In this document: in pieces, positions 534 through 39,169 of the stretch
Numbering within the stretch: the first letter of the stretch is position 1
How the letters are laid out: each line of letters starts with the position of its first letter
From: a virus
Virus record (IMG/VR): IMGVR_UViG_3300015245_000718
Span: 1 to 39,169 of that record
Length of the DNA stretch: 39,169 nucleotides
Reading direction: 5' to 3' (one strand)
The notes under the pieces: generated by a model
The model's input: only the letters and a program-made list of their open reading frames with translations
What the model was told of the DNA's origin: nothing
The model's database searches: none
Position numbers and translations under genes: made by a program

Positions 534-1544
534 TTAGGCGCGCTTCTTTCTCTTGTGCGCTGCGGGTGTGACCAGAACCCGGTCGGCGTAGGCCCGCAGA
601 TGACCGGGCGAGAGGTGCGCGTAGCGCCTGACCATCTCGTAACTCGCCCAGCCGCCCATCTCTTGGAGGACGGAGAGCGGCGTCTCCGCCTGTATCTGCC
701 AGCTCGCCCACGTGTGGCGCAGTTCGTGGAATCGAAAGCCCGGGGCGCCTGCCCTGTTGCAGGCCGTTCGCCACGCCTTCGTCACGACGTACTTGATCGG
801 CTCGCCCTGGTAGCTGAATACGTGCGTCGCGTGCTTGCCCTTCCACCGCTTGATGACGCGCACCGCATCGGAGTTGAGCGCGACCGGGATTCCGCGCCCC
901 GCCTTCGCTTGTGGTCCGGGGATGTAGGCCGTCGCGCGCCGAAGGTCTACGCGGTCCCAGGTGAGGCCGGTGATGTTCGACTTGCGAAGCCCGGTTGCCA
1001 CAGCAACGCGCGCGAGGTCCGCGCTGTGCGGCGGCAGAAGCTTGACGAGCGTCTTGAACTGCTTGCGCGTGAGCCACCGCGGCTCCCCGAGTTCGCGCCG
1101 GTACATCGGGAACTTCGGCACGCTCTCCAGCCAGCCCCACTCGTCGCGCGCCTTGCGCATGATCGAGCGCAGCACGCCCAAGTAGTAATTGACCGTGACC
1201 TTGCCCAAACCCTCCAGCAACTTCGCCCGTGCCGCATCGATAACGGTGCGATCGATTGCGCGCAAAGGTGGATTGCCTGAGTTCTCGATAAACCACTTGA
1301 TGATCCCTTCGTCTTTCGCCTTCGTCCGCTTCTCGGTTTCCTTGAGCCACCGCTCGCCCGCTTGGCTGAGCGTGTGGAACGTCTCGCCTAGCTTTGCTTC
1401 CCGCCAGTAACGAGCGCGAAGTGCGGTCTCGAATTCCTCTGCCTGCGCCCGGTCTGTGGTGCCGGTGCTGATGCGAATCGTTCTGCCGCCGACTTGGAAG
1501 CGACACCAAAAACGTCGTGAGCTGGGTCTGCGGTAGAGCGACAT
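534..1544 (-). CDS. int: Phage tyrosine recombinase (integrase)
   Basis: This 336-residue protein catalyses integration and excision at the tRNA site. Catalytic residues visible from the chosen start are Arg187 (in ATGLRKSN), the box His273-Glu-Leu-Arg276-His277, Trp299 in GGWAS, and the nucleophile Tyr308 in RRYAH. The N-terminal part (about 60-150) fits a SAM-like core-binding domain. The frame stays open upstream to 1652, but those 36 residues are arginine/proline-rich junk-like sequence and overlap the excisionase, so the ATG before SLYRR was preferred. The gene ends 10 bp from the tRNA, the usual place for a tRNA-targeting integrase. Confidence 0.93.
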   Translation of the reverse strand: MSLYRRPSSRRFWCRFQVGGRTIRISTGTTDRAQAEEFETALRARYWREAKLGETFHTLSQAGERWLKETEKRTKAKDEGIIKWFIENSGNPPLRAIDRTVIDAARAKLLEGLGKVTVNYYLGVLRSIMRKARDEWGWLESVPKFPMYRRELGEPRWLTRKQFKTLVKLLPPHSADLARVAVATGLRKSNITGLTWDRVDLRRATAYIPGPQAKAGRGIPVALNSDAVRVIKRWKGKHATHVFSYQGEPIKYVVTKAWRTACNRAGAPGFRFHELRHTWASWQIQAETPLSVLQEMGGWASYEMVRRYAHLSPGHLRAYADRVLVTPAAHKRKKRA

Positions 1545-1720
1545 CGGACGTTCTCTTGCGCCGTTGCTTTCAGGTGCTCTCTCAACTGGTCGGCATCGAA
1601 CCGCCAGTCCTTCCCGAACCGGGCGGCCGGGATTCTGCCACGGCGCGCCCACTCGGTCACAGTCTCAGGGGAAACCCCGAGAATGACCCCAGCGGCCTTG
1701 CTGTCGATGGCGTTACTCAT
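1388..1720 (-). CDS. Excisionase-like winged-helix DNA-binding protein
   Basis: Residues about 9-50 form a MerR/excisionase-type helix-turn-helix with the pattern LGVSPETVTEWARRGRIP followed by a WRFD wing. This is the 'excisionase family DNA-binding' type that bends att DNA and steers recombination. The ATG at 1720 has a purine-rich GAGAGAG upstream; a TTG two codons earlier is also open. The frame runs 157 nt into the integrase gene in a different phase, adding a polar tail of about 50 residues. The HTH part is well supported. The length of the tail depends on the stop at 1388 being real, and int expression would be coupled to translation of this gene. Confidence 0.75.
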   Translation of the reverse strand: MSNAIDSKAAGVILGVSPETVTEWARRGRIPAARFGKDWRFDADQLREHLKATAQENVRCRSTADPAHDVFGVASKSAAERFASAPAPQTGRRQRNSRPHFALVTGGKQS

Positions 1721-1744: not shown

Positions 1745-3274
1745 TCATGCCGCACGTTCGGCAACCAATTCGCTGAAATTCGCGCGCACAAGAGATTCTG
1801 ATTGCACTGGCGGCACAGCATTGCCGATCATCCATACCTGATCTCTCTGGGTGAGCGGCTTGCCCTCGTACTCCGGGTCAAGCACGTAAGCATCTGGCAG
1901 GCTCGTAGCCCTGGCGAGTTCGCGTGGTACGAGCATTCGCATGCCGATATCGGTGATCACATAGGGCTCACCATCAACTTCTACGGTGACCAACCCGAAG
2001 CGGTGTTTCGTAGTAACCGTGCCTAATGGCGATTCAAGGCGAGGGTCCTGGTCGGTTCCGTAGTATTTGATCAAGAAAGCGTGGACGAGGGCGTGATGGT
2101 CCTTCGTCGTGATCGTGAACATGGGCGAGCGCAGGTCGGAGCCATCGTTCTCGTGTCCGCCGTAGTGACGCGCGAGGAACGCGGCCACCAGCGCACCCTG
2201 ACTGCCTTTCGCTGTGATCGTCGGATAGGGCTGCTCGATATCGCGGACGCGCGGGGCTTGCCCTTTGCGTTCGCCGTTGCGTGTGTTGATCAGAGTCGGG
2301 GAGATCAGCGCGAAATGTCCGCCCTTGACATTCGCGCACAGCGTGCGTAACGGCTCGTCGGCGCGGAAGTTCCGTTGACTCGAGGCATTCGCATGCTCAG
2401 TCAAGAACGGCATGACGAGCGCATGATGAGTGCCGGACGCGCTCACCGTGCGCAGCGGCTCAGCGAGCCTGCTTGCGCTTCGATCGATATGGGAACCATC
2501 CGTGCCGCGCATCGTGACGATGAAGGGTGCCGGGTTGTTGACTACGTATCGCATGATCCCGCGCGCGATACGTCGCATGGTTGCCTCTACCAATGGGCGC
2601 TTGCGCTCGAAGATAGAGGGGCACGGAATTGACCAGTCAATGCATTGAGCCGCAGTTCGATAGGGACTGGCTCCGGGGCCGTGTGAGGCTTCCGGAAACA
2701 CGATCTCCTCGCCATCGCTCCGCGCGATCACAAACAGTCGTTTGCGCGACGTCGGTGCGCCGTAGTCGCAGGCACGCAGTTCGCGCATATCGACCTGGTA
2801 ACCAAGATTCTCGATCATCCGATGCCAGCGGCGGAATGTCTGCCCGCGTCGCACCGGGTCAGGCTTGCCGTTATCGAGTAACGGACCCCAATCGGCGAAT
2901 TCCTCGACGTTCTCCAGCATTATGATGCGTGGGCGCCTGACTTTAGCCCAGTGAACGACGCTCCAGGCGAGTCCGCGGATGCGCCTGGCGCGATTGCGGT
3001 CACGGAACGGTTTGCCGCCACGCGCCTTCGAGTGGAAGGTGCAATCCGGGGAGAACCAGGCGAGCCCCACGGGTGAGCCGCGCCCCACGCGACGCGGATC
3101 GAGGCTGCGAATATCTTCGTGCCAATGATGCGTGTACGGATGATTTGCCTTGTGGACCGCGAGCGCCTTGGCATTGTGATTGATCGCATGATCTACCGGA
3201 CGACCGAGCGCCCACTCGATGCCGGTAGATGCCCCGCCACCGCAAGCGAAATTATCTACGACGATTTCACTCAT
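1745..3274 (-). CDS. DNA (cytosine-5) methyltransferase
   Basis: The 509-residue protein transfers a methyl group from S-adenosylmethionine to cytosine C5. Motif I is seen as NFACGGGAS (8-16). The motif IV catalytic cysteine is Cys78 in FSPDCTFHS, a P-D-C variant of the usual P-P-C. Motif VI is ENVEEF (121-126). The C-terminal part carries motif IX/X-like sequence (IGNAVPP). A lone phage enzyme without an endonuclease probably protects phage DNA from host restriction or alters expression; the recognition site cannot be read. Its ATG overlaps the stop of the upstream 30-codon gene as ATGA. Confidence 0.9.
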   Translation of the reverse strand: MSEIVVDNFACGGGASTGIEWALGRPVDHAINHNAKALAVHKANHPYTHHWHEDIRSLDPRRVGRGSPVGLAWFSPDCTFHSKARGGKPFRDRNRARRIRGLAWSVVHWAKVRRPRIIMLENVEEFADWGPLLDNGKPDPVRRGQTFRRWHRMIENLGYQVDMRELRACDYGAPTSRKRLFVIARSDGEEIVFPEASHGPGASPYRTAAQCIDWSIPCPSIFERKRPLVEATMRRIARGIMRYVVNNPAPFIVTMRGTDGSHIDRSASRLAEPLRTVSASGTHHALVMPFLTEHANASSQRNFRADEPLRTLCANVKGGHFALISPTLINTRNGERKGQAPRVRDIEQPYPTITAKGSQGALVAAFLARHYGGHENDGSDLRSPMFTITTKDHHALVHAFLIKYYGTDQDPRLESPLGTVTTKHRFGLVTVEVDGEPYVITDIGMRMLVPRELARATSLPDAYVLDPEYEGKPLTQRDQVWMIGNAVPPVQSESLVRANFSELVAERAA

Positions 3275-3363
3275 GCACAGAGTACCGTTGTTTCCGTTCC
3301 GCCGATGCAGCCTGGTGCGCGGATCTGACAGGTGCGGCCACGGGCAGCGTCACGAAGATTCAT
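3271..3363 (-). pseudogene. Truncated DUF1364 gene (30 codons)
   Basis: The frame begins MNLRDAARGRTCQIR and continues through a cysteine-containing stretch to ETTVLCA, then stops. This matches, from memory, the conserved N-terminus of DUF1364 proteins (about 90-100 residues, Cys-rich, phage recombination clusters), which continue past the ETTVL motif where this one ends. The start overlaps the DUF1367 stop as ATGA (3360-3363) and the stop overlaps the methyltransferase start as ATGA (3271-3274). It is therefore a broken gene by homology yet perfectly embedded in the translational chain. It may be translated as a 30-residue leader peptide. Confidence 0.6.
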
Positions 3364-3785
3364 GCCGCAAGTTCCTCAAGCACCGCCTCGCGCAATGCAT
3401 CGCTGTCGATGCCGCCTGCAATCAAACACAACTCGCGTAACGCACGTTCAAAGAATTGATCGAAGCTGCCTTGGGTCATGCGCGCATAGCTGATGGAGCC
3501 TGGTACCTTGACAACTTCTCCGGTGCTGCGAATGACAACCTCACGCACGATACCGAGCTTCACCTTGAGTTCGACGAGCAAGTCTTCGGGTGAGTCCCAC
3601 TGGCCAGTCGCCTGCCACACGGTCGTGATGAGGCGCCAGAACTTCCGATGCATGGCGCCGTTTCGCGGCTGACGGATCTCGCACAGTACCGGCTCGCTCA
3701 GCTTCAACTTGCGCAGCGCACTGCTCGCCATTTCGTCGGCAGCGATGAGCGATCCGCGAATATCCTTTTGCAGCCACACTTCCAT
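3360..3785 (-). CDS. DUF1367 family phage protein
   Basis: The 141-residue protein starts MEVWLQKDIRGSL and contains PRNGAMHRKFWRLI, the signature of DUF1367. The family is common in the recombination/early regions of lambdoid phages; its function is not established. It sits directly after the exonuclease gene (1-bp overlap) and before the DUF1364 stump (ATGA overlap), the usual DUF1367-DUF1364 neighbourhood, which supports both calls. The frame is open further upstream, but that part overlaps the exonuclease and lacks family similarity. Confidence 0.8.
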   Translation of the reverse strand: MEVWLQKDIRGSLIAADEMASSALRKLKLSEPVLCEIRQPRNGAMHRKFWRLITTVWQATGQWDSPEDLLVELKVKLGIVREVVIRSTGEVVKVPGSISYARMTQGSFDQFFERALRELCLIAGGIDSDALREAVLEELAA

Positions 3786-5919: not shown

Positions 5920-6056
5920 GACCGCACCGGCTTTGCAGGTGTCGACAATTCGACGCTCTCAATATGGCGACCGAGATCCGGTTGCCAGATAAAGCGTATG
6001 ACCACGCGGCAGCCCAGGTGGGTGAAGTAGGAAATCTGTTCGTTTGGTGTGCTCAT
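5916..6056 (-). CDS. Hypothetical protein, 46 aa
   Basis: The frame starts MSTPNEQISYFTHLG and contains a short beta-rich stretch (CRVVIRFIWQPDLGRHIESVEL). The ATG at 6056 overlaps the preceding stop as ATGA and the stop overlaps the next start as GTGA. No known family. The longer open frame upstream overlaps the first gene of the operon and is not expected to be used. Confidence 0.6.
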   Translation of the reverse strand: MSTPNEQISYFTHLGCRVVIRFIWQPDLGRHIESVELSTPAKPVRS

Positions 6057-6259
6057 CGTGATTCCCTTGTGCGCCCTCCAGCGGCAACCTGCATCGGACG
6101 TGGTAGGGCAACGCCGATCACTTCCTCGTGTTGGCGGCGCAAGTCCTGAATGGCGAGCGCATCCTTCAGCGCCCGCTCTTGGGCGGCTCTCATTGCGGCT
6201 GCAATGCGCTCCTCGAAAGAGCAATCTGGGCAGGAACAGCACATGACGGTTAGGACCAT
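6053..6259 (-). CDS. First gene of leftward operon, CxC/C-rich N-terminus
   Basis: The 68-residue protein starts MVLTVMCCSCPDCSFEERI. The four cysteines in the first 14 residues could bind a metal, and the rest is a helical, possibly coiled-coil stretch. The chosen ATG at 6259 lies exactly 7 nt after the -10 box of PL and has no ribosome-binding site, so the mRNA would be leaderless. An in-frame ATG at the MCCSC position (6244) is an alternative start. It ends in an ATGA overlap with the next gene. Confidence 0.6.
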   Translation of the reverse strand: MVLTVMCCSCPDCSFEERIAAAMRAAQERALKDALAIQDLRRQHEEVIGVALPRPMQVAAGGRTRESR

Positions 6260-6309
6260 GTGCGGGAGTATATACAAGCATTATTGTTGCGGTCAACAAG
6301 TTTGCTTGT
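6257..6309 (-). promoter_or_regulatory. Leftward early promoter PL with two operators
   Basis: On the minus strand TTGACC (-35, 6291-6296) and TATACT (-10, 6267-6272) are 18 bp apart, and the first ATG follows 7 nt later. A dyad ACAATAATGCTTGT (6274-6287) fills the spacer, and a second, ACAAGCAAACTTGT (6296-6309), lies at the upstream edge of the -35 box; their centres are 22 bp apart. The first copy has an almost identical counterpart at PR. A repressor bound here would block RNA polymerase. Confidence 0.8.
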
Positions 6310-6357
6310 GCATGGTTGCGCACGCGCAGGCTGCGCTCAAAACCTCGGGCGCAGAAA

Positions 6358-7158
6358 CTATCGGGGCGTTAGCCTGAAGTAGATGCCGGTTTGCTGAGGT
6401 CTGTTGATGGCGAGAAGGATCAGAGTGGCCTGTTGGCCATTGCTGCCTGGGATCAGCCAGGCGCTGCCGATGTACTGGCCTTCTTCTATGAAGCGCAGCG
6501 TCGCGCCGCAGTTGAACGCTGATATGTTCAGGGCGTAAATCGACATACCATCGGTACGTTCGGATAGCTGACCGTCGAAGCGACAGCCGTTCGTGTCGAA
6601 TCCTGTGAGCAGACCTACTACGTCGATATCAATCTGTGCGCTGTAATCGATGTTATTACTGCCATCCGTGGTGAACGGAATGATGTCGCGGTACTGCCAA
6701 TTCCGTTGAATTGTGGCTAGCGGTGGTGCGTTTGTGCTTCTGGAAAACAATCTCACTCCATCGCCAAACCAATCGGTCGATGTCATGGATTTCTGTACGC
6801 GGATGTTTCTTTGTTCGGCCGGCGGATGAGCGCCGGGTGAATGTGATATTGGCTGTGGCAAGCCACCAAGCGCTAGTTGGTTGAGGATGAGCACCGCATC
6901 ACTGCCAGAGATCCTCCACGTACCAAATCCAAGGTGCAAAATCCCGCTAAATACAGCCTCTCCGTTTGGCTCGATGACCATCTCGCCAGCTTCAATTACC
7001 GCGTTGTTGGCGCTGATTTCCAGGTCGTAAAGACCTGCTGGCGGTATGGAGCCTGTAGGCTGTGAAGGCGGTGGTGGACTTTGTATTGGGGTATCGTGCG
7101 ATCCGCCGCCGCAGGCCAAGAGCGCACAATATGCGAGAGCAACAAGCGTGCGTTTCAC
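6358..7158 (-). CDS. Lipoprotein co-expressed with the repressor (lysogenic conversion candidate)
   Basis: The 266-residue protein has a type II signal peptide with lipobox LLAC (Cys16) and then a low-complexity proline/serine linker (residues about 24-36). The rest is beta-rich with two cysteines near the C-terminal third that may pair. The GTG start overlaps the repressor stop as GTGA, so it should be made in lysogens from the repressor promoter. Lipoproteins in this position in other temperate phages can mediate superinfection exclusion or alter the host surface; that role is inference here. No family recognised. Confidence 0.75.
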   Translation of the reverse strand: MKRTLVALAYCALLACGGGSHDTPIQSPPPPSQPTGSIPPAGLYDLEISANNAVIEAGEMVIEPNGEAVFSGILHLGFGTWRISGSDAVLILNQLALGGLPQPISHSPGAHPPAEQRNIRVQKSMTSTDWFGDGVRLFSRSTNAPPLATIQRNWQYRDIIPFTTDGSNNIDYSAQIDIDVVGLLTGFDTNGCRFDGQLSERTDGMSIYALNISAFNCGATLRFIEEGQYIGSAWLIPGSNGQQATLILLAINRPQQTGIYFRLTPR

Positions 7159-8464: not shown

Positions 8465-8791
8465 ATGACTACGCAGCTCGATTTGCTCGCCGACTATCCC
8501 CGCGCTCGGCGCAGCGATCCAGAAACGTCGCACGAAGCTGCCGAACGCATCAAGTCAAACGGCAACCTGAGCCGCCAGCAACACGCTGCGCTCGCGCTCG
8601 TTCGCTGTCACCCTGGGTCAACGACGTGGGAACTCGCTGAATACCAGTCGCGCGAGAGGGGTGAAAACGTATTCCATGCTGAGCGCTGGATCGGGCGTCG
8701 GTTGGGTGAACTTGAGCCGATTCATATATCGAAAGGCACGCCAAGGATTGTGCGCGGACGATCTGCGCATGCGTGGTGGGCTAATCGATAG
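8465..8791 (+). CDS. Winged-helix-type early phage protein
   Basis: The 108-residue protein starts MTTQLDLLADYPRARRSDPETSHEAA and continues with a helical region (SRQQHAALALVRCHPGSTTWELA) that looks like a winged helix, ending in a GRSAHAWW tail. The 'DPETSHEAA' opening is frequent in small phage proteins near replication genes. The start was placed at this ATG because the upstream in-frame part overlaps the CII-like gene and is not protein-like. Function unknown. Confidence 0.65.
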   Translation: MTTQLDLLADYPRARRSDPETSHEAAERIKSNGNLSRQQHAALALVRCHPGSTTWELAEYQSRERGENVFHAERWIGRRLGELEPIHISKGTPRIVRGRSAHAWWANR

Positions 8792-8807
8792 CTTCGAATG
8801 AATTCAG

Positions 8808-8827
8808 TGTCCCGTCGCCTCGGGACA
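8808..8827 (+). promoter_or_regulatory. Hairpin after the winged-helix gene
   Basis: TGTCCCG (8808-8814) pairs perfectly with CGGGACA (8821-8827) around a 6-nt loop. No T-run follows, so it is not a classical terminator. It may slow or process the early transcript. Confidence 0.4.
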
Positions 8828-8910
8828 TAAATATCCGGGCGCGCCTCAGGGGGGATGCTTCCCGCAGCAAGGCGAAAACTTAAGTGCTGCGCAGGCTGAT
8901 TGGGCTCACG

Positions 8911-8995
8911 CGGGTGTAAGCCACGCGAACTCAACTCTCGGCGATGCCGTAGGGGTAAGGGGTTCGTGTGGGTCTACGGGGTGTAAGGGGTAGAT
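8911..8995 (+). repeat. G-rich direct repeats upstream of the replication gene
   Basis: The non-coding stretch holds TAAGGGGT at 8956-8963 and 8984-8991, with related GGGTGTAAG and TAGGGGTAAGG units around them. The repeats are 28 bp apart. They lie directly before a replication-type gene and could be binding sites for it (an origin), or may only provide ribosome-binding purines for the GTG start. Confidence 0.35.
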
Positions 8996-8999
8996 AAGA

Positions 9000-9410
9000 G
9001 TGAAGAGAGGAGAGACTTTTCTTCCGGAGTTCTTCCAACTCTCGGAGTCTACGTGCACTTGGCTATCACAGAGATATCCAGCCATCGACGGCGGCGAAAC
9101 GCTCGCGATTTTCTGCGACAAGGCTCTGGCTCGCGGCTGGCGGTATCGGGATTGGCAAGCCGCATTTCGCAACTACATCCGAAATGCCATGCGTTTCGGC
9201 GGCGTCGCCTACAAGCAGATTGCACGAGACATGGACCCGAAGTGGCAGACGGTATTGCACGAGGCACGCAAGGCCGGGTTTCGCGAGCCGCGCGAGCTAG
9301 AGACACCAGGCGGCTATCGAACGGAGCTTGAGCAGTGGCAACGCGATCCGCAGCGACGAAATGTGCTGACTCTGCGCGCACAAAGCGTATTGAAGCGCGT
9401 GCCTCACTGA
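9000..9410 (+). CDS. Phage replication-type protein (C-terminal domain like)
   Basis: The 136-residue protein starts with GTG and contains DKALARGWRYRDWQAAFRNYIRNAMR, a pattern typical of the C-terminal part of phage origin-binding/helicase-loader proteins. It is shorter than a full O-like protein (about 250-300 residues), so it may represent only that domain. AAGGGG lies upstream of the GTG. Its place after the CII-like gene and the G-rich repeats fits a replication role, but no partner helicase is present in the prophage. Confidence 0.6.
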   Translation: MKRGETFLPEFFQLSESTCTWLSQRYPAIDGGETLAIFCDKALARGWRYRDWQAAFRNYIRNAMRFGGVAYKQIARDMDPKWQTVLHEARKAGFREPRELETPGGYRTELEQWQRDPQRRNVLTLRAQSVLKRVPH

Positions 9411-34443: not shown

Positions 34444-34703
34444 AAACACTCGTCGGCCACCAATCACTCACCGCCGCGATTCAAATTGCCCTGTCAGTCG
34501 TCTTCATCGGCGGCTACTTCGGCGTGCTGCTCCTTTTCATGTACGGCGTGGTGCGCGTGCCAGTCGAGTACAAGGAAGCGTTTATAGCGCTCCTCGGGGT
34601 CATCACGGCGAGCGTGGTAGGTATCTGCAATTTCTGGTTCGCCCGCCAGCGCCCGAACGATCCTCTGCCATTGAGGCCGCCTGAGCCGCCGAGCACGACA
34701 TGA
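34440..34703 (+). CDS. Holin (class II-like)
   Basis: The 87-residue protein has two transmembrane segments (about 12-36 and 46-66) separated by a short loop and a proline-rich charged tail (PLRPPEPPSTT). This fits a holin that opens the inner membrane for the lysozyme. ATGA overlaps join it to the lysozyme and Rz genes. Confidence 0.75.
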   Translation: MKTLVGHQSLTAAIQIALSVVFIGGYFGVLLLFMYGVVRVPVEYKEAFIALLGVITASVVGICNFWFARQRPNDPLPLRPPEPPSTT

Positions 34704-35194
34704 GCCTAAAGCTATGGCTGTATGTCGGTGCCGCTGGACTTGCGCTCCTGCTCATCACTGGCAGCTACGTCAAAGGAAGAAGCGACGGCGCCGACAAGGT
34801 TCGCGCTGAAGTCGCCCTACAGGTGCAGAAGGCGAATGAACATACCCTGCAAATCGAGACACAAGCCCGCGCCGCGAGCGCTGAGGTTGACCGTGACTAT
34901 CAAGCGAAACTGGCTGAACTCGATGCTCGCTACCGCGATGCTGTTGGCCGCATTGGGCCTGTGCGCGTGCGCCAGTGTCCCCGTGGTGGCGAAGTGCCCG
35001 CAGTTGCCGGAGCCGCCAGCGGCGATCATGGTGCCGCCGGTCGAAACGAACTTCCTCGAGCGGCTGGAGACGGTCCTGACGTCGGGCCGGGGCTCGTCGA
35101 GCTCGTCCGCGACGCCGACATCCAGACCGTAAGGCTGATCGCCTGCCAGGACTACGTCGTCAAGGTCCAGAGAGCGTTTGCCGCCAATCGCTGA
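34700..35194 (+). CDS. i-spanin Rz-like protein
   Basis: The 164-residue protein has an N-terminal membrane anchor (about 4-20), then a long coiled-coil periplasmic part (KVRAEVALQVQKANEHTLQIE ... AKLAELDARYRDAVGRI) and a Gly/Ala-rich segment that coincides with the embedded lipoprotein gene. It ends with LVRDADIQTVRLIACQDY. It spans the periplasm and, with the o-spanin, disrupts the outer membrane in the last step of lysis. Confidence 0.8.
   Translation: MSLKLWLYVGAAGLALLLITGSYVKGRSDGADKVRAEVALQVQKANEHTLQIETQARAASAEVDRDYQAKLAELDARYRDAVGRIGPVRVRQCPRGGEVPAVAGAASGDHGAAGRNELPRAAGDGPDVGPGLVELVRDADIQTVRLIACQDYVVKVQRAFAANR
34893..35132 (+). CDS. o-spanin Rz1-like lipoprotein embedded in Rz
   Basis: In the +2 frame within Rz lies a 79-residue lipoprotein. 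It has signal MTIKRNWLNSMLATAMLLAA, lipobox LCAC (Cys26), then proline-rich CPQLPEPPAA and PPVETNFLERLETVL. The GTG start has GAGG about 7 nt upstream, better than the ATG at 34923, which lacks the positive n-region. Fully nested Rz/Rz1 pairs are known in many phages. Confidence 0.8.
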   Translation: MTIKRNWLNSMLATAMLLAALGLCACASVPVVAKCPQLPEPPAAIMVPPVETNFLERLETVLTSGRGSSSSSATPTSRP

Positions 35195-35385
35195 TAAGCG
35201 CGCCTCGCAATCCGTTCGCGCGCCGTTGCCTCGCGGGCAATGTGGCCCTTGATGCGCTCATCTTCAAACCGGGCACGAAGCCACTCCATAGCTCGCTCGC
35301 GCCCTTCTGGGTCAAGGCACTTCAATTCATCGTATGCGCCACGAATGGCGAGAATCTCGATTTCATCGGTTGAAATGTCGCTCAC
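35152..35385 (-). CDS. Hypothetical helical protein, end of right-end operon
   Basis: The 77-residue protein begins MSDISTDEIEILAIRGAYDEL and is acidic then basic and helical (RERAMEWLRARFEDERIKGHI). Its start overlaps the preceding gene's stop as ATGA. It converges with Rz, overlapping by 43 bp, and is the last gene of the nine-gene minus operon. No family recognised. Confidence 0.6.
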   Translation of the reverse strand: MSDISTDEIEILAIRGAYDELKCLDPEGRERAMEWLRARFEDERIKGHIAREATARERIARRAYQRLAANALWTLTT

Positions 35386-35615
35386 TGTCCACTCCCTGAC
35401 ACGGTTACAGAATCACGTAACGTCTCAAGCACCACAGACCAGACGCAATTCATGCAGCACACGGCGTCCTGCCCGCCAACCGATCCGCTGTGCAGATCAT
35501 CGCAGCCGCATGCGGGACAGACTTCCGGCACCTTGGCGAGCAACGCATTGCGGTCGGCTTCATCTTTCTCATCATCGTCGCGGATGTCTTCCGGCCCCAT
35601 CGGCAAATCACTCAT
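35382..35615 (-). CDS. Zinc-ribbon-type protein
   Basis: The 77-residue protein has CPACGCDDLHSGSV then VCCMNCVW, two CxxC knuckles about 18 residues apart that can bind one zinc. An acidic N-terminus (DDDEKDEADRN) precedes them. Such small zinc-ribbon proteins can bind nucleic acid or RNA polymerase. Part of the right-end operon. Confidence 0.65.
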   Translation of the reverse strand: MSDLPMGPEDIRDDDEKDEADRNALLAKVPEVCPACGCDDLHSGSVGGQDAVCCMNCVWSVVLETLRDSVTVSGSGQ

Positions 35616-35635
35616 TGGCAGTCACTCCTGCGGTT

Positions 35636-35830
35636 TCAGCGTTTCAACGGCAGCAGCGCCAGCTCATTCATCTGCCGCATCCATTCAAGTACATCGTCAT
35701 CCTTGAGGAGCGCGGTTAACGCTACCTCGTCGAATGCGTGACCGGCCGGAGAATGCGATTCCAGCATATGCACGATGATCGAGCCGAGCTTCGATAGAAG
35801 TGCCGGCGATGGTTTCAATGGTTTGCTCAT
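35636..35830 (-). CDS. Hypothetical acidic helical protein
   Basis: The 64-residue protein starts MSKPLKPSPALLSKLGSIIV and continues as an amphipathic helix series (DEVALTALLKDDDVLEWMRQMN). ATG at 35830 overlaps the upstream stop (ATGA). Not recognised. Confidence 0.6.
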   Translation of the reverse strand: MSKPLKPSPALLSKLGSIIVHMLESHSPAGHAFDEVALTALLKDDDVLEWMRQMNELALLPLKR

Positions 35831-36036
35831 GTTTGCCCCTCGTCTGCGCTGTCATGCATGGTTACGGCCCTGAGGTTGCAGTCCTTTACGAACCGCATGC
35901 GTTTCTGTCCGTCGAGGCGAATGGCATGGCGGCCTGACGCTGAGACCTTCACATACGTTGCTGGCCAGTCCGTGTCGTAGTAGCTGGATTCGCCTCGCTT
36001 GGTGAAAATCACGCGCATTCCTGGCTCGTATCTCAT
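35827..36036 (-). CDS. Hypothetical small beta protein
   Basis: The 69-residue protein begins MRYEPGMRVIFTKRGESSYYD and is SH3/KOW-like in pattern: short strands (YVKVSASGRHAIRLD, QKRMRFVKDCNL). It may bind nucleic acid or protein, but no family is identified. Coupled to the next gene by ATGA. Confidence 0.6.
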   Translation of the reverse strand: MRYEPGMRVIFTKRGESSYYDTDWPATYVKVSASGRHAIRLDGQKRMRFVKDCNLRAVTMHDSADEGQT

Positions 36037-36048
36037 CGCACGATTACT

Positions 36049-36519
36049 TTACCCGTAGTCGATCAGTTGCGTTCTGGCCGCGACGTACAGCGGATGGCGC
36101 GGGGCGCCGTTCTTCGTTCTGCCTAGGCACTTGATGGGGCGATCATCGAGGTTGCCCATGACGCTATCCGCGTGAAGCTCGCTCACCATTCGGTTAGCAC
36201 CCCAAGCCGCCACTACCAGATCGGATTCAATCGCCATCTGCCGCAAGTGCAGCGTATTGCCAATACCCCAAGGCTCAGGGTGGCGCTGTAGGTCATTCGG
36301 ATCGGTGGCGCGCAATGCGAACAGGTTGCCTACGAGGATCGCTCCATAACCCCAATCTCGCGCGAACAATATGCAACGCCTGATCGTCGGGTCGTCCTGC
36401 TCGGAATCGGCCGTACTTGGATTCAGCATGACCCACAGCACGCACTGTTCCGCTGACCAGCGCCGACCAAGGCGGAAGCGGTACGCGCCGCATGGCGAGA
36501 TGAGTGCGGTTTTATCCAC
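36049..36519 (-). CDS. DUF1643 family protein
   Basis: The 156-residue protein matches DUF1643: WVMLNPSTADSEQDDPTIRRC, DWGYGAILVGNLFALRATDP, and VVAAWGANRM. The family is scattered in bacteria, plasmids and phages; no reaction is established. A conserved Asn-Pro-Ser-Thr-Ala and several Asp/Arg suggest a nucleotide-related fold. It uses a GTG start and overlaps the upstream gene by 8 bp. Confidence 0.85.
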   Translation of the reverse strand: MDKTALISPCGAYRFRLGRRWSAEQCVLWVMLNPSTADSEQDDPTIRRCILFARDWGYGAILVGNLFALRATDPNDLQRHPEPWGIGNTLHLRQMAIESDLVVAAWGANRMVSELHADSVMGNLDDRPIKCLGRTKNGAPRHPLYVAARTQLIDYG

Positions 36520-36724
36520 GCGGCTCGGTTGCGCTGACAGGTCGTATGACGTCCGACCACGGTTTCAAACTCTCCTCGGTCTCGCCTTCAGGCCAGAAAA
36601 AGCACTGGGTGCGTAGCGGGCACAGCAGCGCCATTACCCCGGTCTGCACCGGAGCCCCGCACTTATCGCAGGTCGGGCACGTCGGCGTGTGCCGGTCGCC
36701 GCACCAGCAGAGGTCATGTTCCAT
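36512..36724 (-). CDS. Cysteine-rich (zinc-binding) small protein
   Basis: The 70-residue protein has CWCGDRHTPTCPTCDKCGAPV, with six cysteines in about 15 positions, and a further two at about 35 and 41. It can bind one or two metals. The ATG at 36724 was preferred because longer readings overlap the upstream gene completely. No family recognised. Confidence 0.6.
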   Translation of the reverse strand: MEHDLCWCGDRHTPTCPTCDKCGAPVQTGVMALLCPLRTQCFFWPEGETEESLKPWSDVIRPVSATEPRG

Positions 36725-36896
36725 TGTGAAGTGCTCTCGCTTGCCAGCCGAGCCATAGATAGTCCAAGTGTTGGAGTTCGTAGCCGTGCTGGTTGCGAGA
36801 TTCTTTGATCTCGGCGCGGTCCATGCCCCAATCATCGTGAAGCATGCGCTCGAATCGCTGCCGCTCAGATGGTCTGCGCTTTTTCTTGGGTTTCAT
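36714..36896 (-). CDS. Hypothetical basic protein
   Basis: The 60-residue protein starts MKPKKKRRPSERQRFERML and has a basic N-terminus followed by DWGMDRAEIKESRNQHGY and a Trp-rich end. Start overlaps the upstream stop as ATGA. Its basic head suggests nucleic-acid binding; otherwise unknown. Confidence 0.55.
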   Translation of the reverse strand: MKPKKKRRPSERQRFERMLHDDWGMDRAEIKESRNQHGYELQHLDYLWLGWQARALHNGT

Positions 36897-37102
36897 TTCT
36901 GCCCCGCTGACGCACTAACAGTTGAACTGGTAGTTGAGCTAATCACGGCTGTGCGCGGCTCACGGAATGGATGCCGCCACCAATGCCACAAGCGGCGAAG
37001 CTGCCACCAAGGCGGGCGCTCAAGTCGCAAGTCTATATGCAGCACGTCTCCAACCTTGAATGAATGGCTGGTACTTGTAGTGATCTCGCATGGTTCGGTC
37101 AT
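36893..37102 (-). CDS. Hypothetical protein
   Basis: The 69-residue protein begins MTEPCEITTSTSHSFKVGDVL and has a beta start, a basic Trp-rich middle (WWQLRRLWHWWRHPFREPR) and a Ser/Thr-rich end. It is coupled by ATGA to the next gene. Real because of these joints, but no family is recognised. Confidence 0.55.
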   Translation of the reverse strand: MTEPCEITTSTSHSFKVGDVLHIDLRLERPPWWQLRRLWHWWRHPFREPRTAVISSTTSSTVSASAGQK

Positions 37103-37117
37103 GTAACAGCCGTGTCT

Positions 37118-37594
37118 CTACCCGCTGTTCTTCGTGAGTTGAAGGACATTCGACTCCTCCGGTGGCGGCAACAGGTTCGCGGCCTGCGCAGCATCGAGTA
37201 CGCGCCGGCCATCCTTGAGCAGCATGTGCGGCATGAATGCCGCCTCGAAAGTCAGCACGCCGCACTCGACCGCCGTGGTCTGTCCCTTCACCCAATCCCG
37301 CAGGACTGAACACACGCTGATCCTGGCCTGCTCCAGCGCCTTCTCCTCGCGCTTTCGCTGCGTTTCGCCGTAGCCCTTGAGATGGCCTTGGCTCTTGAGT
37401 AGAGCCTGCGCATAGCCCTTCCAGCTCGCCTCGAGATGCACCTGACGGTCGCGCCACTTGAAGGCCACGATCATGCAGCCGCGCTCCTGATCGACCATCG
37501 AGCCGAAGGACTGGCAGCCGAAGGCTGATAGCGTTTTCTGCATCTCATTGATGGCCCGATCGCCTGCGGTCGCGGTTTCGTAGGGAATGCTCAT
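37118..37594 (-). CDS. First gene of right-end operon, phage hypothetical
   Basis: The 158-residue protein starts MSIPYETATAGDRAINEMQKT and has a DUF-like mixed fold: AFGCQSFGSMVDQERGCMIVAF then RQVHLEASWKGYAQALL. AAAGGTG before the ATG is a good ribosome-binding site, so this is a separate translation start rather than a coupled one. It opens the nine-gene leftward operon. Function unknown; similar proteins occur in prophages. Confidence 0.7.
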   Translation of the reverse strand: MSIPYETATAGDRAINEMQKTLSAFGCQSFGSMVDQERGCMIVAFKWRDRQVHLEASWKGYAQALLKSQGHLKGYGETQRKREEKALEQARISVCSVLRDWVKGQTTAVECGVLTFEAAFMPHMLLKDGRRVLDAAQAANLLPPPEESNVLQLTKNSG

Positions 37595-37653
37595 GTATCA
37601 CCTTTGGAATCAGGAGTATTGCGTCCCACTGTTGCTAATGCCTCAATGGGCGC

Positions 37654-37911
37654 ATGGAGAAAGAAAGGTACGTCAGCGCCGGCAATGCTGCACAGACCCT
37701 CGGGATCACGCTCGAGGAAGTGATCGAATCCATCAAGCGCGCCGGGATCAAGGATCTCATCGGCGGCGAGTACGGCGGGGGCCTGGTGGGTGCCCGACTG
37801 GCAGCTTACGAGGACCAAGGCGCGGCGACTGGTGTGCCCACAAGTGTGTCCTACCACCCTGCAATAGAGCCCGCCACAGCCCCGCCAGCATGGCGAATTT
37901 CAGGGGTTTGA
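37654..37911 (+). CDS. Small divergent protein near attR
   Basis: The 85-residue frame starts MEKERYVSAGNAAQTLGITL and has a helix-turn-helix-like stretch (AAQTLGITLEEVIESIKRAGI). The second half becomes low in structure (PAIEPATAPPAW). It is divergent from the right-end operon, with only 59 bp between the two starts, so it could regulate it. It is less certain than its neighbours. Confidence 0.4.
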   Translation: MEKERYVSAGNAAQTLGITLEEVIESIKRAGIKDLIGGEYGGGLVGARLAAYEDQGAATGVPTSVSYHPAIEPATAPPAWRISGV

Positions 37912-37947
37912 GCAGGGTTCTGCGGTGCTTTCAGGGGGCGTATGTGC

Positions 37948-37989
37948 TTCATAACCCCTAGGTCGGCGGTTCGACTCCGCCCCTCACCA
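37948..37989 (+). repeat. attR core
   Basis: A perfect copy of the 42-bp tRNA segment at 479-520. It is followed by GTTTTCC, not by the CCA that follows the left copy. The tRNA 5' half is absent here, so this is the displaced original 3' end. Confidence 0.93.
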
Positions 37990-38059
37990 GTTTTCCGCGC
38001 AGAAATCAAGAGGGAGTTTGGCCGAAGTTGCGCCAAAACCTGATCACTACATCCACCAA

Positions 38060-38085
38060 CGTCCGTCCACGTCCATCGACGTAGA
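38060..38085 (+). repeat. 10-bp periodic repeat beyond attR
   Basis: ACGTCCGTCC, ACGTCCATCG and the partial ACGTAG follow each other with a 10-bp period. The run lies about 70 bp outside attR in host-side DNA, next to a fragment of an AlpA gene. It may be a residual arm-type recombinase site or a protein-binding array; its role is unknown. Confidence 0.55.
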
Positions 38086-38103
38086 CAAATTTTGGCGCGT
38101 ACC

Positions 38104-38413: not shown

Positions 38414-39169
38414 TCAGATTCTGTACTTCAGAACGATATTTGAGACCAAGTCATCCACGAAGTCGATGACCTTAGGTGGCTTTATCGTGATGCCCGAAGG
38501 ATGAGCCGAGGAATTCCTCGTCCCAAGCTTTTCGTCAAGGATTTTTCGAACGTCGTTGGAAATGACGTTCGCGGAGCGCGTGAACTCGATAAGCTTGTTT
38601 TCCGGAATGTCGCTGAAATCATCGCGCGTAGTGATGCCCGTTACCTTGACGCGCTTGTCGGTGTTCTTGCCGAGAGCGACGTTGAAGGCGGTCAGATGGT
38701 GCGCCATCACGTAAGATATCAGATGGTCTATCGCGAGAATCCAGCACATGACAATCGTCGCGCGGTTCGCGCCGATTTCGAAGCAGTCGATGGTTTCCTT
38801 CAAGAAGTCCTTCGCGGGTCCCGGGCTCATCTTCGCTTCAAGCTTGCGGGGCTCGGCGTTCGCCTGAACGACGACATGCTCCGCGCCAAGCTGTTTTGAC
38901 AACTGCTCGCGGTAGTGGTGCTGGAGCCTGTAGCCTCCTTCGGCCTTGACGTACATCCCTTCGGTCACGCCCTCGGAGAGGAACTGCGCGGTTCTCGTCG
39001 GCGGCGTCAGGTCACACGCCGTGAAGCAGGCGTCCACGCCCTTGCGCGAGGCCGTTGGTTCCTGCAGCTCGACGGTCAGGTAATAGACAAAGAGCCCGAC
39101 CAGCTCCCTTGGTGGCAGTTGGTCGGGGTTTTCAACCGAGGCATAGAACCGCTTCGCACCCTCGCTCAC
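38414..39169 (-). CDS. HEPN-like host protein, possibly partial
   Basis: The frame reaches the end of the window (GTG at the very edge), so its start may lie beyond it; 251 residues are visible. The protein is helical. Near the C-terminus it has TRNSSAHPSG with Arg218 and His223, the R-x4-H ribonuclease motif of HEPN domains, preceded by the helix VISNDVRKILDEKLG. HEPN proteins are often RNA-cleaving toxins or defence proteins. The call rests on this motif and the helical pattern. Confidence 0.6.
   Translation of the reverse strand: MSEGAKRFYASVENPDQLPPRELVGLFVYYLTVELQEPTASRKGVDACFTACDLTPPTRTAQFLSEGVTEGMYVKAEGGYRLQHHYREQLSKQLGAEHVVVQANAEPRKLEAKMSPGPAKDFLKETIDCFEIGANRATIVMCWILAIDHLISYVMAHHLTAFNVALGKNTDKRVKVTGITTRDDFSDIPENKLIEFTRSANVISNDVRKILDEKLGTRNSSAHPSGITIKPPKVIDFVDDLVSNIVLKYRI

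Follow-up and report, generated by a model that had tools for sequence, protein, structure and literature searches.

A block of nine small leftward genes lies at the right end of a lambda-like prophage, and raises the question of what these genes do and to which transcription unit they belong. The prophage is contained in the 39,169-base IMG/VR virus record IMGVR_UViG_3300015245_000718, which was analysed over its whole length (positions 1–39,169; hereafter the window), and the nine open reading frames (ORFs), numbered here from 9 (first gene) to 1 (last gene), extend on the minus strand from 37594 to 35152. A preliminary description had taken them to be a separately regulated locus and the most probable site of a counter-defence or host-modifying system. 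A different picture emerges from our analysis, and it has two parts. First, the gene order suggests that the nine genes most likely form the distal, accessory portion of the phage's integrase-side (pL-like) early operon. Secondly, the gene 5 protein, a member of the DUF1643 family, is probably related to the uracil-DNA glycosylases (UDGs). We consider the chances of the two parts holding together, with distal-operon read-through and DUF1643 as a UDG-like base glycosylase, to be evenly balanced.

The nine-gene operon

Chains of same-strand ORFs of at least 55 amino acids, with junctions between −15 and +25 nt, were sought in the window and compared with those arising in three controls: 300 first-order Markov sequences, the strand antisense to the late genes, and the opposite strand at the same place. 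The search recovers all nine leftwards ORFs between 37594 and 35152, with junctions of −11 to +20 nt, while the controls reach a maximum of six ORFs in the Markov sequences, two to four antisense to the late genes, and three opposite the operon. The location and strand reported in the preliminary description are thus borne out, as is the opposition of the operon to the late genes; its statement that nearly all of the genes overlap applies to five of the eight junctions (4, 8, 11, 4 and 4 nt), the other three being gaps of 12–20 nt. At its 3′ end gene 1 overlaps the convergent Rz gene (34700–35194, plus strand) by 43 nt. Codon usage is typical for gene 9 (37118–37594), near neutral for the small genes and negative for gene 8 (36893–37102), so that the smallest ORFs are supported mainly by the chain itself; the coding status of gene 5 is backed by its family membership. 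As far as the sequence tells, the nine ORFs are a real and coherent operon, of an ordinary accessory kind for a lambda-like prophage.

Position of the operon relative to integrase and attP

The prophage is bounded by a perfect 42-bp repeat (100% identity), of which one copy, attL (479–520), lies inside a tRNA-Met gene (447–523), and the other, attR (37948–37989), repeats the 3′ end of that gene. The left part of the prophage encodes a CI-like regulator, a CII-like activator, an exonuclease, an Orf/NinB-type recombination protein, a DNA methyltransferase and the integrase, and the plus strand encodes terminase, portal, major head protein, tape measure, endolysin and Rz. The integrase gene (int; 534–1652, minus strand; PHROG 5e-63) reads towards attL and the nine genes sit immediately inside attR, so that on the phage circle the operon is downstream of int across attP and has the same direction. 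Transcription from the recombination genes would therefore pass on the circle through int, across attP, and into genes 9 to 1, and integration would split this unit such that its accessory piece ends up at the far end of the prophage. The arrangement resembles, by gene order, the left operon and b region of lambda, with int, attP and accessory genes running in the same direction on a circular genome; in lambda, the left operon extends beyond int into the b region.

The relatives of gene 9 point in the same direction. They were found at 23 viral loci with 48–79% amino acid identity, and in all five of the records with a recognisable integrase (L005, L007, L018, L020 and L022) the gene 9 relative is on the int strand, either within about 2.2 kb of int or at the opposite end of the record with its direction unchanged, as in the window. 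It is the continuation of the int direction across attP, together with this placing of gene 9 relatives beside int, that argues for the distal-operon reading. DUF1643 genes are likewise found near int and on the same strand at nine loci (L007, L033, L037, L042, L046, L056, L064, L075 and L096), and at one of these, L007, DUF1643, int and gene 9 are all on one strand, with DUF1643 and gene 9 flanking int. A promoter scan of 34900–38100 found no sigma-70-like site, including ahead of the operon, and a scan of the int–att stretch found no terminator-like site; these absences fit, though weakly, the read-through from int into gene 9 that we infer from the sequence arrangement.

Two observations weigh against a single transcript of this kind. 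Several other records (e.g. L029, L060, L065, L080) have DUF1643 and int in convergent or divergent orientation, and an 85-amino-acid ORF (37654–37911, plus strand) situated between attR and gene 9, divergent from the operon and pointing at attR, would oppose the read-through transcript if it were expressed. This ORF is also central to the strongest of the alternatives, in which the nine genes are an independently regulated, moron-like operon of lysogenic-conversion or superinfection genes, with a promoter of its own in 37594–37700 controlled by the 85-amino-acid protein. The divergent layout with its 59-bp gap, a codon score for the 85-amino-acid ORF as high as those of the training genes, and a plausible ribosome-binding sequence (AAAGGTG) ahead of gene 9 all favor this arrangement. 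However, the promoter scan is negative, the 85-amino-acid protein matches no family and has no relatives in a scan of viral contigs, leaving the helix-turn-helix gene suspected in the preliminary description without family support, and the relatives of gene 9 are integrase-side operon genes. We therefore regard an operon with its own promoter as a possible but not a favored explanation, and of the coherent, separately regulated locus originally proposed we retain the coherence and the separation by orientation from the late genes, with the operon more likely continuing the integrase-side early operon across attP.

DUF1643 as a candidate base glycosylase

Gene 5 (36049–36519, minus strand; 156 amino acids) encodes a DUF1643 protein (PF07799), as the preliminary description had recognised, with a Pfam match (E-value 8.3e-40; 136.4 bits against a cut-off of 22.5) that extends over all profile positions, 1–134 of 134, and a match to phrog_3230 (PHROG 1.4e-53). 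It is a full-length member that keeps all of the invariant residues and shows no sequence difference from the family. DUF1643 has been described as a family of unknown role (PMC9226611). The family is mobile and standalone, and its viral members number in the hundreds: relatives are encoded by at least 583 viral contig stretches, 146 phage records match, homologues occur in Pseudomonas phage LKA5 and Stenotrophomonas phage AXL3, and the family is spread across bacteria and archaea, including 3 of 149 Bacillota and 11 of 79 cyanobacterial genomes, some with tandem copies. Three of these cyanobacterial genomes, small ones of about 2 Mb (G185, G223 and G227; loci L227, L228, L231 and L234–L237), carry tandem arrays of two or three divergent DUF1643 genes.

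Sequence conservation and a structural model together suggest what the protein may do. The AlphaFold2 model is confident (predicted local distance difference test score, pLDDT, 90.8; predicted template modelling score, pTM, 0.88), and when it was compared with known structures using VIA-align, 31 of 50 rows were UDGs, six different proteins in all, with Z scores of 5.3–6.3 over 119–129 of the 156 residues (positions 6–155). Among 166 DUF1643 sequences N65 is conserved in 100% and N33, D43 and H142 in 99%, and across 15 divergent members with about 25% identity the sole invariant residues are N33, P34, D43, N65, G107 and H142. These can be placed against the UDG motifs, whose roles have been described (PMC5387724). 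First, the Asn/Asp-Pro of UDG motif 1, which follows strand beta1, corresponds to N33-P34 (99%), and the motif reads GINPS at loci L007 and L221. Secondly, the Asn of motif 3 at the end of beta2 (N123/N80 in UDGs) corresponds to N65, the last residue of the strand formed by residues 60–65 in the model. Thirdly, the His-Pro of motif 2 after beta4 (H187/H155) corresponds to H142, in a register taken from the topology and not from residue-level superposition; several divergent members read HPS at this site. The order of strands and motifs, beta1-NPS, beta2-N, beta3-WG and beta4-HP, is that of the UDGs.

DUF1643 thus shares with the UDG superfamily, and especially with families 1–4 and UdgX, the strand and motif order, the Asn at position 3 of motif 1, the Asn of motif 3 and the His-Pro of motif 2, but has a shorter core (156 amino acids) and in most members reads RHPLY instead of HPS at motif 2. 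Because the invariant residues include the UDG catalytic set, the fold assignment is strengthened, and the most likely identity of DUF1643 is a UDG-superfamily-like base N-glycosylase, its predicted Asn-Asn-His active site being formed by N33, N65 and H142. Such an enzyme would excise abnormal or modified bases, acting either on the replicating DNA of the phage itself or on that of a competitor. We offer the UDG assignment as a supported hypothesis in which the homology of fold, the catalysis and the substrate are all inferred.

Several comparisons weigh against this assignment. A VIA Z score of about 6 is inside the stated noise band of the tool and can reflect no more than a common arrangement; similar scores are reached by Toprim and DNPH1/MilB folds over approximately 100 residues. 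A Foldseek search of the model against the PDB gave no match below E 1e-3. In profile–profile comparisons scored against shuffled sequences, the UDG families have Z values of 1.1–3.0 compared with 6.2 for the nucleoside deoxyribosyltransferase (NDT) control and 3.7 for Toprim. Gene 5 does not match PF03167, DUF1643 being the sole Pfam family reported at E up to 1. Alignments with hhalign between DUF1643 and UDG families (P 0.013–0.05) were dropped as support because the NDT and Toprim controls are equal or better, and an hmmsearch of PDB sequences with DUF1643 returned only a GTPase match, which we judge to be due to chance.

The same comparisons provide an alternative function for DUF1643, as a nucleotide or nucleoside N-glycosidase or deoxyribosyltransferase-like protein of the NDT/DNPH1 fold that acts on the nucleotide pool and not on DNA. 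The NDT family is above the UDG families in the profile comparison, and both DNPH1 and MilB are present in the VIA list; however, in the profile alignment the first core strand of DUF1643 is set against strand two of NDT, the NDT/DNPH1 structures cover about 100 residues compared with about 125 for the UDGs, and the acidic nucleophile region typical of NDTs is not seen among the invariant residues. We consider this alternative to be rather improbable.

Relationships to known systems

The closest functional precedents for a UDG-like DUF1643 are Brig1 and Brig3, which are examples of UDG-superfamily enzymes serving as antiphage effectors (PMC11078745, PMC13160076), and the likeness, as judged from the described functions, is in base excision during phage–bacterium conflict. 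The Brig proteins, however, come from defence islands, whereas DUF1643 is mobile, common in phages and other elements, and has no conserved neighbours in cellular genomes, where the adjacent genes are mutually unrelated and not enriched in defence functions. An unrecognised UDG family, spread by hundreds of phages and mobile elements, that cuts modified bases out of the DNA of competing phages or of the host, as a counterpart of the Brig proteins carried on a prophage and here co-expressed with integration genes, is a reading of DUF1643 that we consider unlikely. A parallel with Brig3 and its ASCH partner BapA was dropped because the RPILFSGP/TRR neighbour family of DUF1643 has no Pfam match. 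Among other neighbours of DUF1643, a DUF5131 family is located within 3 kb at 10 loci, and at L007 a protein with a RGCGHGCAYCYVP motif (2491–3381, plus strand), which looks radical-SAM-like by eye, is encoded directly 3′ of DUF1643.

DUF1643 genes are also known from other types of mobile element. Recombinases and an Ung inhibitor accompany DUF1643 in staphylococcal cassette chromosome mec (SCCmec) elements (PMC7581432), and DUF1643 is also cargo of an ISL3 element (PMC13231603). The association of DUF950, DUF960 and DUF1643 genes with recombinases in SCCmec resembles the situation on the int side described here, with the difference that none of the operon proteins has a Pfam match to DUF950 (SaUGI) or DUF960. 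A specific and testable reading of DUF1643 is useful in that the family is carried by phages, SCCmec, the ISL3 insertion sequence and many chromosomes. If the protein is a base glycosylase, then an enzyme of base excision travels on mobile elements beside their recombinases. This would bear on how the elements deal with uracil or modified DNA, and on the reason for the pairing of DUF1643 with an Ung inhibitor in SCCmec.

The remaining genes of the operon

Relatives were found for two of the nine operon genes, genes 5 and 9. Gene 9 (minus strand, as are all nine) encodes a 158-amino-acid protein of the phrog_17260 family (PHROG 3.4e-13), whose AlphaFold2 model (pLDDT 85.7) has an alpha-beta-beta-beta-alpha arrangement with a long helix and gives no Foldseek match below E 1e-3 in either the PDB or BFVD. 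The best VIA row for this model is Gp1.2 of T7, an inhibitor of the E. coli dGTPase, but its Z of 6.3 over 76 residues is inside the noise band and the likeness was not adopted. One phage (L017) encodes two members of the gene 9 family (6001–6459 and 8734–9156, both plus strand), the second of which is only about 28% identical to gene 9 of the window.

Downstream of gene 9 are gene 8 (69 amino acids; an orphan with a weak coding score), gene 7 (36714–36896; 60 amino acids and basic), which overlaps gene 8 by 4 nt, and gene 6 (36512–36724), for which a start at 36724 giving 70 amino acids fits best, and not the earlier 36835. Gene 6 is rich in cysteine (CWCGDRH..CPTCDKCG). Gene 5 is followed by gene 4 (35827–36036; 69 amino acids, an orphan), gene 3 (35636–35830; 64 amino acids), which overlaps gene 4 by 4 nt, the cysteine-rich orphan gene 2 (35382–35615; 77 amino acids; CPACGCD..CCMNC), and gene 1 (35152–35385; 77 amino acids). 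Individual scans of viral contigs gave no relatives of genes 2, 4, 6 or 8, and genes 1, 3 and 7, compared with the family libraries and with the viral loci collected for this analysis, have no match there. Genes 3, 4 and 7 match no family; the KOW-like character given to gene 4 was by eye only and finds no family support. The two proteins described as zinc-type are indeed cysteine-rich, but neither reaches the cut-off of a zinc family, the zinc-ribbon match of gene 6 falling under it and gene 2 matching Lar (PF14354) with E 0.53 and 11 bits against a cut-off of 28.6.

The nine genes were not found together as an inherited set in other prophages, genes 5 and 9 recurring widely but independently, and a near-neighbour DNA search of named phages matched nothing beyond the DUF1643 stretch. 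The operon is thus not a conserved system, but two mobile families in the company of genes that have no known relatives. The idea that it is a counter-defence operon, whose small proteins would counteract restriction, CRISPR or abortive infection, draws on the very weak Lar-like zinc-ribbon match of gene 2 and on the location, anti-restriction proteins often being found among small early orphans at the end of an early operon, but seems quite unlikely given that the Lar match is far below its cut-off, that eight proteins of the operon region (a set without genes 1 and 7) have no PADLOC match, that the neighbours of DUF1643 in cellular genomes are not enriched in defence functions, and that the nine genes are not kept together as a unit.

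The DNA methyltransferase of the left operon (1745–3274, minus strand), just upstream of int, matches both type II and DruM/DrmMII methyltransferase models. Beyond attR, a host-side gene truncated by the end of the record (38414–39169, minus strand) has a weak PADLOC match to PD-T7-3 (E 9e-4).

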